NCBI GenBank assembly: GCA_947499595.1
Contig: CANMOY010000003.1
Coordinates: 62,001 to 126,000 of the forward strand
Direction: 5' to 3'
Length of the DNA: 64,000 bases
Source: an uncultured Mesonia sp.
GTDB taxonomy: Bacteria > Bacteroidota > Bacteroidia > Flavobacteriales > Flavobacteriaceae
Both the position numbers and the translations under genes were made by a program. Position 1 is the first letter of the stretch; each line of letters starts with the position of its first letter. The notes under the pieces were generated by a model. The model was not told where the DNA came from and searched no databases. It worked only from the letters and a program-made list of their open reading frames with translations. Below are positions 51,882 through 62,587 of this stretch, piece after piece.

Positions 51882-52805
51882 ATGAAAAAATCAATTTTCT
51901 GTGCAGCCGCTCTACTTTTTGGTGCTGTTGCTTTCGCTCAAAACACAAGTAATGTAGACCAAACCGGTGTAACGAATAAAGCTTGGGTAGATCAAAGTGG
52001 TAACAATAATAGTGATGTAGACCAAGAGTTTACAGGTAACAAAGCCGACATCGATCAAATAGGGCATAACTACTCTAAAGTAGATCAAAAAGGTAATGTG
52101 GGGGGTAATCCTGCAAGTGGTGACTCAAACTACGCAAAAGTAGATCAAAACGGAGGTTTAGTTACTCAACAAAGATCTACCGTTGAACAACAAGGAGATA
52201 GAAACAAAGCTTATGTAGATCAAGACGGGCAAGATAACCGCTCAGACATACAGCAAGGAAACGGGATGAACGCCGAAGATAACTGGGCAAAAGCCATTCA
52301 GGATGGAAATGGTAACCGTTCTACTATTTTCCAGACTTATGATAATAACAGGTCTAAAGTTAATCAACAAGGAGATGATAACTATGCTAATGTAAGACAA
52401 ATAGCCAGACCAAATCAGTCTAAAGGTAATTACTCAGATATCGAACAAATGGGTAATGATAACCATGCTACTTCAAGACAAGAGACTTCAGGTGCATATT
52501 TAGCTCCAGGATACTCAAACATAGAGAAAGTTAAGCAATATGATGACGGAAACAAATCTATCTTAGATCAATTAGGTGATTTTAACCGCTCAGAAGTAAC
52601 TCAATCTGGAGGAGTAGGACTTAACACTAACTACGCTAATGTAGACCAAGATGGTGAAATGAACAAGTCTTACATCACGCAAAAAGAACAAGGTGCTATT
52701 ACTGCAGATAACTATGCAAAAGTTACCCAGTCAGGAATGTTAGGAAACACAAGTCACGTAAATCAAGCAGGTGCAAACTCAGCTTGGGTGAACCAGTCTA
52801 ACTAA
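51882..52805 (+). CDS. csgA: Major curlin-like amyloid subunit
   Basis: A 307-residue secreted curlin. After a signal peptide (cleaved after VAFAQ, residue 20) almost the whole chain is made of about 20 degenerate repeats of the form (N/S)-x-A/S-x-V-D-Q-x-G-(x)2-N, for example NKAWVDQSGNNNSDVDQ, NKAYVDQDGQDNRSDIQQ and NYAKVDQNGG. Regular Gln and Asn placement on alternating strands is the hallmark of the curlin beta-solenoid. It is twice the length of E. coli CsgA (five repeats), and loops of variable length (such as IARPNQSKG) interrupt the register. The chain is acidic and almost free of cysteine. It lies first in the csg operon. Confidence 0.92.
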   Translation: MKKSIFCAAALLFGAVAFAQNTSNVDQTGVTNKAWVDQSGNNNSDVDQEFTGNKADIDQIGHNYSKVDQKGNVGGNPASGDSNYAKVDQNGGLVTQQRSTVEQQGDRNKAYVDQDGQDNRSDIQQGNGMNAEDNWAKAIQDGNGNRSTIFQTYDNNRSKVNQQGDDNYANVRQIARPNQSKGNYSDIEQMGNDNHATSRQETSGAYLAPGYSNIEKVKQYDDGNKSILDQLGDFNRSEVTQSGGVGLNTNYANVDQDGEMNKSYITQKEQGAITADNYAKVTQSGMLGNTSHVNQAGANSAWVNQSN

Positions 52806-52961: not shown

Positions 52962-53471
52962 ATGAAAAAGAAATCAATTTTAATCATTTTCTGCGCTATT
53001 CTATTTAATTGGAATTCCGTCGCTCAAGAACAAGGTGAAGACAATCCAGAAATAGTTGAGGAAAATGCAGCCAATCTTAATATTTTGAGTCGATTTGCCG
53101 AAACAAGTGTGCTGTCCGAACAAGTACCACCCTTAGGAAACCAGGTTTATATTGATCAAATAGGAGAACGAAATATTATTATGACACAAGTCAATTCAAA
53201 TCGATCTGAAGTAAGACTAAGTCAGAATGGTAGCGACAATATTATTGGACTGAGCTTAAGAGCAAAACAAATTAATGAGAGAATAAGTCAGTCTGGAGAT
53301 AGTAATTTAGCCTTACGTTATATAAATGATCCTCTAGGCACAATCAATTTTGAATTGATTCAAAATGGAGGAAACCAATACATACAACATGGAGCTAACC
53401 GATTAACCAATAATTTAAAAATAGAGCAAAGTGTTGGAGATCGTGGTATTATTATTCGAAGCTTTAGATAA
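52962..53471 (+). CDS. csgB: Minor curlin-like subunit (CsgB-like nucleator)
   Basis: A 169-residue secreted protein with signal peptide (cleaved after NSVAQ, residue 22). The first half of the mature part is acidic and non-repetitive; residues 60-165 carry four to five curlin-like repeats, such as NQVYIDQIGERNIIMTQ, NRSEVRLSQNGSDNIIGL, and ERISQSGDSNLALR. The repeats are less regular and more hydrophobic than in the upstream curlin, with Ile and Arg at outward positions, and the protein ends IIIRSFR; CsgB also has a basic C-terminal end. The nucleator role is inferred from position and repeat divergence. Confidence 0.85.
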   Translation: MKKKSILIIFCAILFNWNSVAQEQGEDNPEIVEENAANLNILSRFAETSVLSEQVPPLGNQVYIDQIGERNIIMTQVNSNRSEVRLSQNGSDNIIGLSLRAKQINERISQSGDSNLALRYINDPLGTINFELIQNGGNQYIQHGANRLTNNLKIEQSVGDRGIIIRSFR

Positions 53472-53489: not shown

Positions 53490-54248
53490 TTGAAACTTTT
53501 TAACTACATAACTATTTTATTATTTAGTGTGAATTTGGGTTTTTCTCAAGTTTACAATCAAACTATTGAGGCTAAAATACAAACTGATTTTCGAGATGAT
53601 TTTTTAACGATTACTGGTACTGCTCTTAATAAAACTAGCTTCAATGCCAGTTTAAGATATGAATTATCCGTTATAAAACACGTGGGCAGTAATCATTCAA
53701 AAAATAGCCAAGCAGGTCGATTCACTCTTTTACCTAATGAGGGGAAGGAACTTTCAAAAACCACTATAAATCTAGATGATAAAGCGAAAATTATTATTCT
53801 ATTGTTGATCTATGATATAGACGATCAATTGGTAGGTAAAGACCGGTTGGTTTTAAACGAAAATAAAAATGAATCGATTCAAAATCAGCAGGCTAATGTA
53901 AAAAATATGTTAAATAAGTTAAGCGCTAATGATGATGTAGGCTTTGTTTTAAGAGGGGTCGTTACGCAAGAAATGAAAACCAAAGCTGGAAATGATTTTT
54001 ATAACTATTTCTCTACAATATATCGTCAAAGCGGAATAAATAGCCAGTTCATTGTGCACGTAAGAGAACAATTTAACCTGGGAAGAAATACCAAAATACA
54101 AGTTTTGGTTAATCAAGATGTTGTTTACCAATTTTTTGCACAACCTAAACAAGATTACTTGAAAGGTATGGCCGAAAATGCTTTGAGGAGACTTGGTGGC
54201 TACTTACAGCAAATTGAAAGAAATAAAGAAACAATACAAAAATTTTAA
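53490..54248 (+). CDS. csgE: CsgE with an N-terminal CsgH-like domain
   Basis: A 252-residue periplasmic protein with signal peptide (cleaved after LGFSQ, residue 20). Residues 150-250 match CsgE, the adaptor that caps CsgG: RGVVTQEMKTKAGNDFYNYF, then LVNQDVVYQFFAQPKQDY and the helical end. Residues 24-125 are extra compared with E. coli CsgE (about 130 residues) and resemble the curli inhibitor CsgH: a beta-sandwich pattern with SLRYELSVIKHVGSNHSKN, then SQAGRFTLLPNEGKELS, where the S-Q-x-G-R-F-x-L core recalls CsgH. A fusion of inhibitor and secretion adaptor is inferred. TTG appears to be the start codon, 18 bases after csgB. Confidence 0.85.
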   Translation: MKLFNYITILLFSVNLGFSQVYNQTIEAKIQTDFRDDFLTITGTALNKTSFNASLRYELSVIKHVGSNHSKNSQAGRFTLLPNEGKELSKTTINLDDKAKIIILLLIYDIDDQLVGKDRLVLNENKNESIQNQQANVKNMLNKLSANDDVGFVLRGVVTQEMKTKAGNDFYNYFSTIYRQSGINSQFIVHVREQFNLGRNTKIQVLVNQDVVYQFFAQPKQDYLKGMAENALRRLGGYLQQIERNKETIQKF

Positions 54249-54252
54249 TATT

Positions 54253-54648
54253 ATGAAGTCAATCCTAACCTTGCTTTTATTAATATTTAGTTTAGCGGTA
54301 TCCGCACAACAACTAACTTATAAACCTAAAAATCCTGCATTTGGGGGCGATACTTTCAATTATCAATGGTTGCTTAGTTCTGCCAACGCTCAGAATGATT
54401 TCGAAGAGCAATCAGATCGTGATATCGATTCTGAATTAGAAGACTTTGCTAAAGGTCTAAATCGTCAATTATTAGGTCAACTCGAACGTACATTACTCAC
54501 CAACCAGTTGGGAGATGGTGATTTAAAACCAGGAACTTTTTCATTCGGAAGTTTGGAGGTAGAAATTTATGAATCTCTAGAGGGTTTAGTGGTTAATATT
54601 TTAGACACGAATACGGGAGAGCAAACACAAATTATAGTACCTAATTAA
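54253..54648 (+). CDS. csgF: Curli assembly factor CsgF
   Basis: A 131-residue secreted protein; the signal peptide is cleaved after SLAVSAQ (residue 19). The mature N terminus carries the CsgF signature that inserts into the CsgG channel: TYKPKNPAFGGDTFNYQWLL (about 22-41) followed by SSANAQN, matching the NPxFGG and LLxxAxAQN patterns. The rest is a small helical-beta neck domain ending in EQTQIIVPN. The start at 54253 follows the csgE stop by four bases; an upstream in-frame ATG lies inside csgE and lacks a signal peptide. CsgF anchors the minor curlin at the surface in E. coli. Confidence 0.95.
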   Translation: MKSILTLLLLIFSLAVSAQQLTYKPKNPAFGGDTFNYQWLLSSANAQNDFEEQSDRDIDSELEDFAKGLNRQLLGQLERTLLTNQLGDGDLKPGTFSFGSLEVEIYESLEGLVVNILDTNTGEQTQIIVPN

Positions 54649-54661
54649 TTTCTGGATATTT

Positions 54662-56056
54662 ATGAGACGATGGAAAACCATATCAGTTATCCTGGTTACT
54701 GGCTTTTTTGTTGGTTGTGGAACTTACTTCAATCAGCCAATAAAACAACAAAGCGCACGTACCGGTGAATTGACTACAGCTAGCAAAACTTTAAAAGATC
54801 TTCCTAAGCCACAGAAAAAAGTTGTAGTGGGTGTTTATTCTTTTAAAGATCAAACAGGGCAGTATAAAGAAATTCAAAACGGGAGTTCTTTTAGTACTGC
54901 AGTAACCCAAGGAGGAACTTCTATATTGATAAAAGCATTAGAAGACTCGGAGTGGTTTACGCCAATAGAACGTGAAAACTTAAGTAATTTGCTTAATGAG
55001 CGTAATATTATTAGATCTACAAGGCAAGAATACGCAGGTAATAATGGCCCGGCAGTACCTCCGTTACTATTCGCAGGTGTGCTATTAGAAGGAGGGGTGG
55101 TGTCTTACGATACTAATATATTAACAGGAGGCTTTGGCGCAAGATACTTTGGAGCAGGAGGCAGTACACAATATAAACAGGATCGTATTACGGTTTATTT
55201 ACGCGCCATTTCCACCTCAAATGGTGAAGTTTTAAAGACTGTTTATGTTTCAAAAACAATTTTGTCTCAAGCTATTGATGCAAGTTTATTTAGGTATGTA
55301 AATTTCCAAAGACTTTTAGAGGTAGAAACTGGCTATACTAAAAATGAACCTTTACAATTGGTAGTCAAAGAGGCTATTGAAAAAGCTGTTGAGGCCATCA
55401 TCATTGAGGGCTTAGAAGAGAAAATTTGGTCGGCAGAAAACCCAGAAGAGGCACAGACTTTAATTGAAAAGTATAATCAAGAGAAACAGGAAGAGCAGGC
55501 TGTTGAACTGTATAACCGTAAAAAAATTGATTTTAATTATACAAACGCTTTTGAAATTCAATTAGGGTTAAATAGATTTTTGGGAGACTATGGCGCGAGA
55601 GATTTTGATTATATAGGAAAACTAGGTTACCATCGCAGATTCATTCCTCATTTCGGGGCTAGTCTAAGGGGGTATGCCTTAGACTTTGAAATTCCGAACT
55701 CCAAAAATACATTGCATTTAGGCGTTGATTTAGATGCCGAGGTATACCTCTTACCCTATGATAAATTTTCTCCCTTCTTTCATGCGGGGGCTGGTATGCT
55801 TTTTCAAAGCGAGAAAAATAACTGGTTTACAAATCAAGAGGAATTTTTTAAACTTCAATATGGAACTGGTCTTCAATATAATTTAAACTCTAGATTAAAT
55901 GTATTTTTAAAAGGAACTTATCACTTGTCTTTTTCTGATGAAATAGACGCTTTGAATTATGGTAAACGAGATGATTATTTTATCGATGTTGGAGTCGGTT
56001 TAACCTATATGTTTGGAGGCAAAAAAGAAAAAAACACAAATAAAGATGAAGAATAA
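54662..56056 (+). CDS. csgG: Curli secretion channel CsgG with a C-terminal beta-barrel-like extension
   Basis: A 464-residue outer-membrane lipoprotein. The lipobox is FVGC with Cys19. Residues 35-265 are canonical CsgG: KKVVVGVYSFKDQTGQYKE, GGTSILIKALEDSEWFTPIE, RENLSNLLNERNIIRSTRQE and the two channel-forming beta-hairpin regions after LLFAGVLLEGGVVSYDTN. E. coli CsgG ends here (277 residues including signal). This protein continues with a charged helix (about 265-290) and about 165 residues of alternating strands ending IDVGVGLTYMFGG, typical of an OmpA/OMP_b-brl-type eight-stranded barrel or barrel-like domain. The stop overlaps the next gene. Confidence 0.92.
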   Translation: MRRWKTISVILVTGFFVGCGTYFNQPIKQQSARTGELTTASKTLKDLPKPQKKVVVGVYSFKDQTGQYKEIQNGSSFSTAVTQGGTSILIKALEDSEWFTPIERENLSNLLNERNIIRSTRQEYAGNNGPAVPPLLFAGVLLEGGVVSYDTNILTGGFGARYFGAGGSTQYKQDRITVYLRAISTSNGEVLKTVYVSKTILSQAIDASLFRYVNFQRLLEVETGYTKNEPLQLVVKEAIEKAVEAIIIEGLEEKIWSAENPEEAQTLIEKYNQEKQEEQAVELYNRKKIDFNYTNAFEIQLGLNRFLGDYGARDFDYIGKLGYHRRFIPHFGASLRGYALDFEIPNSKNTLHLGVDLDAEVYLLPYDKFSPFFHAGAGMLFQSEKNNWFTNQEEFFKLQYGTGLQYNLNSRLNVFLKGTYHLSFSDEIDALNYGKRDDYFIDVGVGLTYMFGGKKEKNTNKDEE

Positions 56057-57551
56057 ACAATTACTATTTTTAATTCTTGCCTTTTTGGGTGTATTCCATT
56101 ATGGCTGCGAAGAAGATACTATAGATGAATCTGAAATAGGAAATATTACTGGATCTGTAGTAATTAAAGACGATAAATCCCCAATTGCTAACGCTAAGAT
56201 TTCTACAAATCCTGCTACTTCAACTGTATTTACTGATGATTTTGGTCAATTTATTCTAGAAGGTGTCAGCGTAGGAGAATATTCTGTTCAGGCAAAAAAG
56301 GAAGGGCTTACAGCAAATTTTGAAGGCGTAACTGTTCAAGCGAACAGCAGTGTAAATGTTATATTTGAGATGGAAAATGAGGCGATTTTAAATACACCAC
56401 CAAAAGCTCCAGAGCCTTTACTTCCTCAGGATAATCAAGTCGACGTATCAAACAACTTTGAGTTTGTTTGGGCTAAAAGTACAGATAGAGAAGATCAAGA
56501 ATCATTAACTTACACACTCGAAATTAGAGATGCTCAAAACCAAGAAGTGTTGCGTTTTGAAAATATTACAGATACAATCAAACAGATTGATAATTTACAG
56601 TTTTCTAAACAATATTTTTGGCAAGTCAGTGTAAGCGATGGGGTAAATGATGCAGTGCGTAGTGAATTATTTACATTTAAAACTGCTGATTTTCCGGTAA
56701 TTACTAATTATTTTGTTAAGAATGTGAATGGGAATAATGTAATTTATGCTCTTTCTGAAGATGAAGATGAAATTCAGCTTACATCAGAAAACTACAATAG
56801 CTTTAGACCCAGAAAAAATAATGGGGTAAATAAAATTGCTTTTATGCGAAGCGTAGGAGCCCAAACGCATCTGTTCACAATGAATCCAGATGGGAGTGAC
56901 CAACAACAAATCTCAAGTATTCCAATCGGAGGATTCAATATGGAGATGGTTGATTTTGATTGGACTTCCAATGGCAACGCCCTGGTTTATCCTAATTTCA
57001 CTAACCTTTTTCAAGTGAATTATACCGGAGGTGGCACACAAGCCATTTACCAAACCTCAGACGGTAGTTTGGTTACAGAAGTTGCCGTGTATGAAAATGA
57101 CAATTCTAAAATAGCACTTATTACCAATGATAATAGTGGTTACAATGCCAAAGTATTTGTTTATGATTTAACTACAAATCTAGTCACCCATATGATTCAG
57201 CAAAACCTGCCTGGAGCAGTTGGCGGGATTGATTTTTCACCTGCAGGAAATCGCGTGTTGTTTACACGAGACGTGCAAGGTTTTGAAAATCCTAACTATA
57301 GGCAGTTAGATTCAAGAATATTTTTATATAACCTAAACACGCAAGTATTGGTAGATATTTCTACCGAGAAAGATGCAGGAACCAATGATTTGGATCCAAA
57401 GTTCTCGCCCACAGGTGCAGATATTATTTTTGTTAATGTTCCCAATAATTTAAATGCAACTCCACAAATTTATATTAGCGATATAAACCCCAACGATAAT
57501 GAACCGCGCTTTTTATTGGTAGATGGGGCCTATATGCCTGAATGGAAATAA
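56046..57551 (+). CDS. Curli-operon lipoprotein with regulatory-like, Ig/FnIII-like and PD40 propeller regions
   Basis: A 501-residue lipoprotein from the ATG at 56046, which overlaps the csgG stop by 11 bases. The lipobox is HYGC with Cys at about residue 20. Residues 30-115 form a CarboxypepD_reg-like domain (GSVVIKDDKSPIANAKIS, DDFGQFILEGVSVGEYSV). Residues 120-215 form a fibronectin-III/Ig-like domain (PEPLLPQDNQVDVSNNFEF, YFWQVSVSDG). The C-terminal 270 residues show TolB/PD40 beta-propeller repeats (LFTMNPDGSDQQQISS, GGIDFSPAGNRVLFTRD, PKFSPTGADIIFV). No E. coli curli gene corresponds. A surface or periplasmic binding role in curli assembly or anchoring is inferred from operon position. 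Confidence 0.85.
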   Translation: MKNKQLLFLILAFLGVFHYGCEEDTIDESEIGNITGSVVIKDDKSPIANAKISTNPATSTVFTDDFGQFILEGVSVGEYSVQAKKEGLTANFEGVTVQANSSVNVIFEMENEAILNTPPKAPEPLLPQDNQVDVSNNFEFVWAKSTDREDQESLTYTLEIRDAQNQEVLRFENITDTIKQIDNLQFSKQYFWQVSVSDGVNDAVRSELFTFKTADFPVITNYFVKNVNGNNVIYALSEDEDEIQLTSENYNSFRPRKNNGVNKIAFMRSVGAQTHLFTMNPDGSDQQQISSIPIGGFNMEMVDFDWTSNGNALVYPNFTNLFQVNYTGGGTQAIYQTSDGSLVTEVAVYENDNSKIALITNDNSGYNAKVFVYDLTTNLVTHMIQQNLPGAVGGIDFSPAGNRVLFTRDVQGFENPNYRQLDSRIFLYNLNTQVLVDISTEKDAGTNDLDPKFSPTGADIIFVNVPNNLNATPQIYISDINPNDNEPRFLLVDGAYMPEWK

Positions 57552-60040: not shown

Positions 60041-62587
60041 ATGAAAGTAAAAACAAAACAAAAAACTTCAGTTTTTTCACAAGATGAAGCATTCAAAGCT
60101 TCTCTAGAATATTTTAATGGCGATGATCTTGCTGCTCGTGTATGGGTAAACAAATACGCGCTAAAAGATTCTGAAGGGAATATCTATGAGGCAACTCCTA
60201 ATGATATGCATCGTCGTATCGCTAAAGAAATTGCTAGAATAGAAAAAAGGTATCCTAACCCAATGAGTGAAGAGGAGGTTTTTAATCTTATTAAAGATTT
60301 TAAATATATTGTACCTCAAGGTAGCCCTATGGCCGGTATAGGAAATCCCTATCAGGTAGCCTCGCTTTCTAATTGTTTTGTAATAGGTAATGACGGCGAT
60401 TCAGACTCCTACGGGGGAATAATGAAGATAGATCAAGAGCAAGTTCAGTTAATGAAACGTCGCGGAGGGGTTGGTCACGATTTATCGCATATAAGACCAA
60501 AAGGTAGCGAAGTGAAAAACTCAGCCCTTACTTCAACCGGGGTAGTGCCTTTTATGGAGCGCTATTCGAATTCAACACGAGAAGTTGCGCAAGACGGTAG
60601 ACGAGGAGCTCTAATGCTTTCGGTTTCTATAAATCACCCAGATGCAGAAGACTTTATAGATGCTAAAATGGAACAAGGCAAAGTGACCGGAGCTAATGTC
60701 TCGGTGAGAATTGATGATGAGTTTATGAAAGCAGTTAAAAACGCTACGTCTTATACTCAAAAATATCCTGTTTTTAGCGAAAAGCCAAAATTTGAAAAAG
60801 AAATTGATGCTTCAGGAGTATGGAAAAAGATAGTCCACAATGCGTGGAAATCAGCCGAACCAGGTATATTATTCTGGGATACAATTGCGAGAGAATCTAT
60901 ACCAGATTGTTATGCCGACCTAGGGTATAAAACCGTATCAACAAATCCGTGTGGAGAGATACCATTGTGCCCGTACGATTCTTGTAGGTTATTGGCTATT
61001 AACTTATTCTCATACGTTAATAATCCTTTTACTCCAGAAGCTAGTTTTGACTTTGATTTATTTAAGAAGCATGCTGCTTACGCTCAGCGTATGATGGACG
61101 ATATCATTGATCTCGAGCTTGAAAAAATAGATGCGATTATAGAAAAGATTGATGCTGATCCAGAATCTTCAGAAATTAAAGCAACCGAGCGTAATTTATG
61201 GGAAAACATTCAGCGAAAAGCTGAAGAAGGAAGAAGAACAGGAATTGGTATTACAGCCGAAGGAGACATGTTAGCTGCCCTAGGAATCAAGTATGGTTCG
61301 CAAGAAGGTAACGACTTCTCGGTAGAAGTTCACAAAAATTTAGCTTTAGCCGTCTATCGCGGATCGGTTTATACCGCCAAAGAAAGAGGTTCTTTTGCAA
61401 TCTATGATTCAGAAAGAGAAGCCAATAACCCGTTTATACTCCGTTTGAAGGAAGCCGATGAGCAACTGTATTATGAAATGATGGAGTATGGTAGACGAAA
61501 TATAGCGCTACTAACAATAGCTCCAACTGGGACTACAAGTTTAATGACCCAAACAAGTTCGGGAATTGAACCCGTCTTTTTACCGGTCTATAAACGTAGG
61601 CGTAAAGTAAATCCAAATGACAAAGAAGCCCGTGTAGATTTTGTTGATGAAGTAGGCGATTCTTGGGAAGAGTATGTTGTATTTCATCACAGGTTTAAAC
61701 AATGGATGCAAGTCCAAGGCTATGATGTGAATAAAAATTACACCCAACAAGAGTTAGATCAACTCGTGCAAGAGTCGCCCTATTACAAAGCTACCTCAAA
61801 CGATGTAGATTGGTTAAGCAAAGTTCATATGCAAGGCGCAGTGCAAAAATGGGTAGATCACTCTATTAGTGTAACGATTAACTTGCCTCACGATGTGTCG
61901 GAAGAATTAGTAGGAAAGCTTTACCTTGAAGCTTGGCAATCGGGATGTAAAGGGGTTACCGTTTATAGAGACGGTTCAAGAAGTGGTGTATTGATTTCGA
62001 ACGAAGAAAAAGAAGAAGAAAATGCAGAAACTTTAACTGCTTTCCCTACAAAAAGACCAGATGTTTTAACAGCCGATATTGTGCGTTTTCAAAACAATAA
62101 AGAGAAGTGGATTGCTTTTATTGGAAGTATAAATGATCAACCTTATGAGATTTTTACCGGTCTAGCCGATGATGAAGACGGTATTTTATTGCCACGCTGG
62201 GTGACCAATGGATTAATTATTAAGAACAGAAATGCAGACGGTACTTCTCGTTATGATTTCCAATACGAGAATAAGCGTGGTTATAAAACCACTATTGAAG
62301 GGCTTTCGCATAAATTTGACCCAGAATATTGGAATTATGCAAAACTGATTTCAAGTACTTTGCGCTACGGAATGCCTATCAATAAAATTGTAGACCTTAT
62401 TAATAGTCTTCAACTTGACAGTCAGTCTATAAATACCTGGAAAAATGGTGTAGTGCGTGCACTCAAGCGATATGTAGAAGATGGAACTCAAGCCAAAGGC
62501 AGATGTCAAAGCTGTAACTCAGACCAATTGGTGTATCAAGAGGGATGCCTTACTTGTACCAATTGCGGTTCTTCGAAATGCGGATAA
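60041..62587 (+). CDS. nrdJ: Adenosylcobalamin-dependent (class II) ribonucleoside-diphosphate reductase
   Basis: An 848-residue ribonucleotide reductase that makes deoxyribonucleotides using a B12 radical. Motifs of the alpha barrel are visible: QGSPMAGIGNPYQVASLSNCF (about 93-113) with the first redox cysteine, STNPCGEIPLCPYDSCRLLAIN-type sequence (about 305-326) with the radical-site Asn-x-Cys-x-Glu, and TIAPTGTTSLMTQTSSGIEP (about 491-510). The C terminus has a zinc-ribbon-like tail, CQSCNSDQLVYQEGCLTCTN then CGSSKCG. The tyrosine pair of class I is absent. No NrdB partner is adjacent, as expected. Confidence 0.95.
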   Translation: MKVKTKQKTSVFSQDEAFKASLEYFNGDDLAARVWVNKYALKDSEGNIYEATPNDMHRRIAKEIARIEKRYPNPMSEEEVFNLIKDFKYIVPQGSPMAGIGNPYQVASLSNCFVIGNDGDSDSYGGIMKIDQEQVQLMKRRGGVGHDLSHIRPKGSEVKNSALTSTGVVPFMERYSNSTREVAQDGRRGALMLSVSINHPDAEDFIDAKMEQGKVTGANVSVRIDDEFMKAVKNATSYTQKYPVFSEKPKFEKEIDASGVWKKIVHNAWKSAEPGILFWDTIARESIPDCYADLGYKTVSTNPCGEIPLCPYDSCRLLAINLFSYVNNPFTPEASFDFDLFKKHAAYAQRMMDDIIDLELEKIDAIIEKIDADPESSEIKATERNLWENIQRKAEEGRRTGIGITAEGDMLAALGIKYGSQEGNDFSVEVHKNLALAVYRGSVYTAKERGSFAIYDSEREANNPFILRLKEADEQLYYEMMEYGRRNIALLTIAPTGTTSLMTQTSSGIEPVFLPVYKRRRKVNPNDKEARVDFVDEVGDSWEEYVVFHHRFKQWMQVQGYDVNKNYTQQELDQLVQESPYYKATSNDVDWLSKVHMQGAVQKWVDHSISVTINLPHDVSEELVGKLYLEAWQSGCKGVTVYRDGSRSGVLISNEEKEEENAETLTAFPTKRPDVLTADIVRFQNNKEKWIAFIGSINDQPYEIFTGLADDEDGILLPRWVTNGLIIKNRNADGTSRYDFQYENKRGYKTTIEGLSHKFDPEYWNYAKLISSTLRYGMPINKIVDLINSLQLDSQSINTWKNGVVRALKRYVEDGTQAKGRCQSCNSDQLVYQEGCLTCTNCGSSKCG

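Follow-up and report, generated by a model that had tools for sequence, protein, structure and literature searches.

Why does a csgE gene in a flavobacterial curli operon encode about 130 mature residues ahead of its CsgE domain? The question arises from a 64,000-nucleotide stretch of contig CANMOY010000003.1 from an uncultured Mesonia sp. (positions 62,001 to 126,000; here called the window), in which a plus-strand gene at 53490..54248 starts with a TTG codon and encodes an exported product of 252 amino acids. Surveys of curli operons have tallied csgC and csgH as separate genes. According to the accessible text of PMC3521004, csgC was lacking in all Bacteroidetes genera found, and that of PMC12822426 places CsgA/B with CsgEFG, inhibitor gene absent, among the five commonest gene sets. 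In the window, CsgE is joined to a CsgC/CsgH-type domain in one chain, and sequence profiles together with structure models support this N-terminal domain as a putative amyloid inhibitor.

The N-terminal domain, residues 25-123 (53562..53858), is modelled as a seven-stranded beta-sandwich, and its assignment draws on an NCBIfam model, a profile match to CsgC in the PDB, and fold comparisons. Residues 28-103 match the NCBIfam CsgH model (NF041112) at E 6e-9, which bears out the original prediction of a CsgH-like domain ahead of CsgE; the whole protein scores 35.8 bits, barely above the cut-off of 35, and the domain alone 38.3 bits. An alignment (A2) brought together 55 such domains, 54 of them taken from genomes other than that of the window. 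Singly, 46 of the 55 match the CsgH model at E <= 0.01, so the match is not due to chance. The NCBIfam CsgC model is matched by 18 at the same threshold, while Pfam Tafi-CsgC and Pfam CsgH are matched at E <= 1 by 23 and 4, respectively; the window domain does not reach the Pfam CsgH (PF21112) cut-off, with 11.7 bits against 27. Searched against all PDB sequences, the A2 profile places E. coli CsgC on top (2xsk, 4.2e-5; 2y2t, 4.3e-5), the next match after CsgC being unrelated at E 1.1, and CsgH 2n59 is absent from its five matches. A profile was needed for this result: single-sequence phmmer of the PDB finds CsgE and neither CsgC nor CsgH.

Structural comparison leads to the same families. Residues 27-122 form seven strands in the predicted structure, in keeping with the beta-sandwich pattern first read from the sequence, and its proposed core S-Q-x-G-R-F-x-L (residues 73-80, 53706..53729) aligns in the profile alignment to K-Q-E-K-T-L-S-L of E. 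coli CsgC. Among the 55 domains, Q74 is conserved in 44, G76 in 45, and a basic residue at 77 in 42. The fold search that had been proposed as a refuting test did not point to an unrelated family. With the full model, the two best Foldseek matches are CsgC and then CsgH, and with the N-terminal domain modelled alone these two are the sole matches at E <= 0.001; the VIA fold ranking has two unrelated entries between CsgC and CsgH.

The C-terminal part of about 100 residues is CsgE, as originally proposed. Within the CsgE domain (residues 154-252, 53949..54245), residues 154-250 match PF10627 at 5.9e-14 and 52.7 bits against a cut-off of 25, and comparison with CsgE 2na4 identifies a CsgE fold; the isoelectric point (pI) of the domain is 9.8. 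The linker, residues 124-153 (53859..53948), is modelled mostly with low confidence. At the other end, residues 1-20 (53490..53549) read as a signal peptide, MKLFNYITILLFSVNLGFSQ, of the plain type, with no lipobox cysteine and a cleavage site judged by eye; the predicted local distance difference test score is low over residues 1-23. Upstream of the TTG the frame is open for only 3 codons, and downstream there is no methionine before residue 140; a start at any ATG would therefore lose the signal peptide.

Scans with the CsgH model and the domain's own profile detect no second CsgH in the operon or the genome, the CsgC model not having been run genome-wide by itself. This agrees with the earlier statement that the operon has no separate csgC or csgH, and a separate copy elsewhere in the genome was likewise rejected on these scans. 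The CsgH model returned the fusion gene and one match of E 0.54 in a 38-amino-acid frame with stops, and the own profile returned the fusion gene alone.

The arrangement recurs across Bacteroidota. In a sample of 395 genomes from this phylum, CsgE occurs in 41 and a CsgH match at E <= 0.01 in 27; six of these 27 matches are weak and lie inside open reading frames (ORFs) of 771-3818 amino acids in genomes without CsgE. By the own profile, a single-frame fusion is present in 14 of the 41 CsgE genomes. The N-terminal domains of those 14 helped to build that profile, and 13 of them also match the independent CsgH model, the one from G130 not. Two further CsgE genomes carry the fusion across a frame change, and in six others (G166, G387, G195, G309, G344, and G231) CsgH is matched by a separate ORF of 125-243 amino acids, located about 3.7-6.6 kilobases from csgE. 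The remaining 19 have no CsgH by the CsgH model, G158 being marginal with the own profile (E 0.036).

Within the window's family (397 genomes), the fusion protein is matched in 87, and 84 of these cover both domains in one frame, with a match running from residue 40 or earlier to residue 225 or later. The three exceptions are G534 (70-246, the N-terminal part being found separately), G612 (contig end), and G507 (CsgE part only). Genomes of the family that possess the protein usually have it as this fusion, which is not special to the window. Two genomes, G555 and G723, encode two tandem CsgH domains before CsgE in a single frame of 404-405 amino acids (L084, 1008-2222; L085, 1423-2634). In G692, which also has a CsgH-CsgE fusion, a lone CsgH-like gene (L087, 1495-1968) lies beside an ORF that reads as carrying curlin-like repeats. 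CsgE proteins of another Bacteroidota group bear an N-terminal LysM domain, above the Pfam cut-off in three of six scanned (L005, L014, and L016) and just under it in L009, which suggests peptidoglycan anchoring of the export gate.

A further form appears in the apparently Flavobacterium-like genus of genome G316. Among 348 genomes of this genus the CsgH part was found in 82, and three same-genus genomes from the phylum sample bring the total to 85 junctions, misses included. The two domains share a frame in 47 of them, where a linker run of at least seven A's is missing in 34 and runs of 7 to 11 are present in 13. The domains lie in different frames in the other 38 (L104-L124, L129, L131-L143, L053, L171, and L183). 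All 38 have exactly ten A's (A10) and then a G at the junction, the first A being the second codon base and CsgE lying in the -1 frame. The CsgH frame meets a stop within 0-4 codons after the run in 37 of these genes and after 10 codons in one. Median pairwise DNA identity in the alignment of the 38 is 0.69, with a minimum of 0.55, and the A10 run is its longest invariant block, the next being 3 bases. The argument is one of conservation at the junction and not of rarity, because each of five genomes scanned holds 48 to 93 A10 runs. The gene in the window lacks this run, its longest stretch of A's over the two domains and linker being 6.

The csgE half of the out-of-frame genes is under purifying selection. 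Its median ratio of nonsynonymous to synonymous substitution rates (dN/dS) is 0.070 over 239 ungapped pairs of 75-95% identity, and that of in-frame genes is 0.062 over 63 such pairs. Sequencing or assembly error was rejected as a source of the split genes, since 38 genomes share the A10-G junction, phase, and frame and their csgE is under this selection. An independent csgE start was also rejected: an in-frame ATG, GTG, or TTG precedes the domain in 10 of the 38, always at most 7 codons from the domain start, and with only 7 to 24 open codons before the domain, most of the genes lack room for a separate signal peptide. In the tree, 37 of the out-of-frame genes fall in one clade of 42, alongside three in-frame A10 genes, one in-frame A11 gene, and one gene without a run at the junction (L150, 8 by scan). 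L171, the only one outside it, belongs to a different clade, which implies more than one gain or loss of the split state.

The split gene probably yields both a free inhibitor and an inhibitor-CsgE chain, and the pattern of the junction makes transcriptional slippage the most likely mechanism. Slippage of RNA polymerase on at least nine A's is established in bacteria, and the hybrid of the Thermus polymerase spans 9-10 base pairs (PMC1088944, PMC5009743). The relatives combine three features of a programmed site of this kind, namely at least nine A's at the frame transition, a selected downstream frame, and an early unslipped stop. The main competitor, -1 programmed ribosomal frameshifting at A_AAA_AAG, the site used in E. 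coli dnaX (PMC3711429), is a serious but minority possibility. In all 38 genes the run ends in this heptamer, correctly phased, the -1 frame fits, folding downstream of the run is somewhat more stable than in shuffles (mean z -1.37), and junction folding is more stable than in in-frame relatives (p 0.016). This difference, considered as a sign of a conserved RNA hairpin that would stimulate frameshifting, is not confined to the junction, however: a control at +60 nucleotides shows none (p 0.28), but one at +150 nucleotides shows a stronger one (p 5e-6). The heptamer requires six A's, yet ten are invariant, and polymerase slippage is favoured because of these ten.

It is quite improbable that the run is instead a phase-variation tract, in which replication slippage would switch csgE off and on. 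Runs of ten A's are mutable, and A11 occurs in one in-frame relative, L037. Of the 42 clade members, however, 40 have exactly A10 and none has A9, while the three in-frame A10 members keep their frame through downstream sequence and not through run length. Purifying selection on csgE, much as in fused genes, also speaks against a tract that switches the gene off. The genus also has five A10 genes whose domains share a frame. If their transcripts gained one base, translation would reach a stop within 0-4 codons, and these genes could also yield both products; the evidence is weak because stops are frequent in AT-rich DNA.

For the window protein, the account favoured with good confidence is that of a two-domain periplasmic chaperone, in which a disulphide-free anti-nucleation domain of the CsgC/CsgH superfamily precedes a CsgG-capping CsgE; it would include the A10 fusion of the relatives. 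Sequence profiles and models establish the domain identities, the covalent linkage, the lack of a second detectable CsgH in this genome, and wide conservation in the family. In E. coli, CsgE and CsgG form a 9:9 complex in which CsgE caps CsgG (PMC5135000). If the window's CsgE assembles like the E. coli nonamer, as many as nine inhibitor domains, each contributed by one CsgE, would ring the channel entrance. The tethered domain could then prevent the negatively charged curlin (pI 4.6) from folding before its entry into CsgG and suppress nucleation, and inhibition would be concentrated at the export gate. In the A10 relatives, CsgH alone would be made from transcripts without slippage and CsgH-CsgE from those with it, and the clade would produce free and tethered inhibitor together.

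In two respects the domain departs from the characterised inhibitors. CsgC and CsgH are defined by disulphides, a CxC pair in CsgC and distant cysteines in CsgH, and both have a pI more than 2 units above that of curlin (Taylor et al. 2016, PMC4838910). The defining disulphide is missing here: the window domain has no cysteine, none of the 55 homologues has two, and only three have any. With a pI of 6.1, against 4.6 and 4.9 for the two curlins of the operon, the domain also falls short of the 2-unit gap, which the whole mature protein, at 9.2, would satisfy.

The lack of a disulphide and the near-neutral pI would suit an alternative, judged unlikely, in which the domain keeps the CsgC/CsgH fold and ancestry, has lost anti-amyloid activity, and acts as a spacer or adaptor that seats CsgE on a flavobacterial CsgG extended by a beta-barrel-like part. 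The CsgG in the window does carry a C-terminal extension, and the LysM domains show that CsgE elsewhere in Bacteroidota can have a different module at its N terminus. Basic residues on the corresponding strands are nevertheless largely retained among the 55 domains, at 56 (33), 63 (51), 71 (36), 77 (42), 117 (49), and 119 (44). R40 of CsgC is reported to be critical (PMC4838910), and R56 appears to be its counterpart, based on a numbering offset drawn here between that paper and the chain. Moreover, the unshifted frame of the 38 relatives ends soon after the domain, which is thus apparently also made without CsgE, as would be needless for a spacer, and the lone CsgH-like gene of G692 adjoins an ORF with curlin-like repeats. 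A chance match or an unrelated immunoglobulin-like domain with convergent resemblance to CsgH has next to no probability, since sequence profiles select CsgH and CsgC without recourse to structure (46 of 55 domains for the CsgH model) and both curli inhibitors head both Foldseek searches.

The gene order of the operon is two curlin genes, the fusion gene, csgF, and csgG, all on the plus strand. The first gene (51882..52805) encodes a CsgA/B-type curlin with curlin repeats (PF07012; pI 4.6), and the second (52962..53471) a curlin-like protein of pI 4.9 with weak matches only (Curlin_rpt 0.6, CsgA model 0.0009). The likely csgF ATG, the first in an ORF listed from 54193, lies four bases past the csgE stop, and csgF (PF10614) extends over 54253..54648. 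The csgG gene (54662..56056; PF03783) continues into a C-terminal extension resembling an outer-membrane beta-barrel, with matches to Pfam OMP_b-brl (residues 314-451) and to PorG of the type IX secretion system, both below their cut-offs, and the CsgG channel may itself also be a fusion. Overlapping the end of csgG, an ORF at 56013-57551 has a lipoprotein-like start, a carboxypeptidase-regulatory-like domain, and weak matches to propellers of the TolB/dipeptidyl-peptidase type; it is a possible further member of the curli locus.

These are known families in a new arrangement. Literature searches brought up no report of CsgH fused to CsgE in the text they covered, including that of PMC3521004, PMC4838910, PMC5135000, PMC12822426, and PMC10192328 (supplements and most subscription papers lay outside the search). 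Nor did they bring up any slippage site described for a curli gene, PMC3711429 being among the texts covered. In the main text of PMC4838910 the terms fusion and fused are absent, and its accessible part describes no one-chain link between CsgH and CsgE. A broader proposition, considered reasonably likely, is that flavobacteria merged two periplasmic curli chaperones and set the proportions of free and gate-bound inhibitor through a constitutive fusion in the window lineage, tandem domains in a few genomes, and the A10 site in a large Flavobacterium-like clade. Should CsgE indeed conceal an inhibitor, control of amyloid formation at the export gate would be more widespread than gene counts suggest, and a single chain would allow a direct test of curlin handover from a CsgC-type chaperone to the CsgE-CsgG gate. 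The A10 relatives would offer a natural system for tuning free versus gate-bound inhibitor, and csgE in their split genomes could easily be mistaken for a broken gene.

Compared with known systems, the window protein combines familiar parts. E. coli CsgC (2xsk, 2y2t) is a free protein with a CxC pair (PMC4838910), whereas the window domain is cysteine-free and fused to CsgE. CsgH of alphaproteobacteria (2n59, NF041112) has the same fold and is the best sequence family for the domain; it is encoded by a separate gene adjoining csgA/B (PMC3521004) and has a disulphide, neither of which holds for the window domain. A Bacteroidetes sub-family of CsgH-like proteins mentioned in PMC4838910 may cover the separate csgH genes of Bacteroidota and possibly window-type domains. 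CsgE itself (PF10627, 2na4) is the same as the C-terminal domain, but the E. coli-type model (NF007701) has 129 positions and no N-terminal domain. The split relatives find their closest parallel in dnaX, where one gene likewise gives two products through a slippery A run, by transcriptional slippage on A9 in Thermus thermophilus (PMC1088944) and by frameshifting at A_AAA_AAG in E. coli (PMC3711429). The window gene has no such run, and the long product of the relatives, unlike that of dnaX, gains a whole second functional domain within a secretion system.
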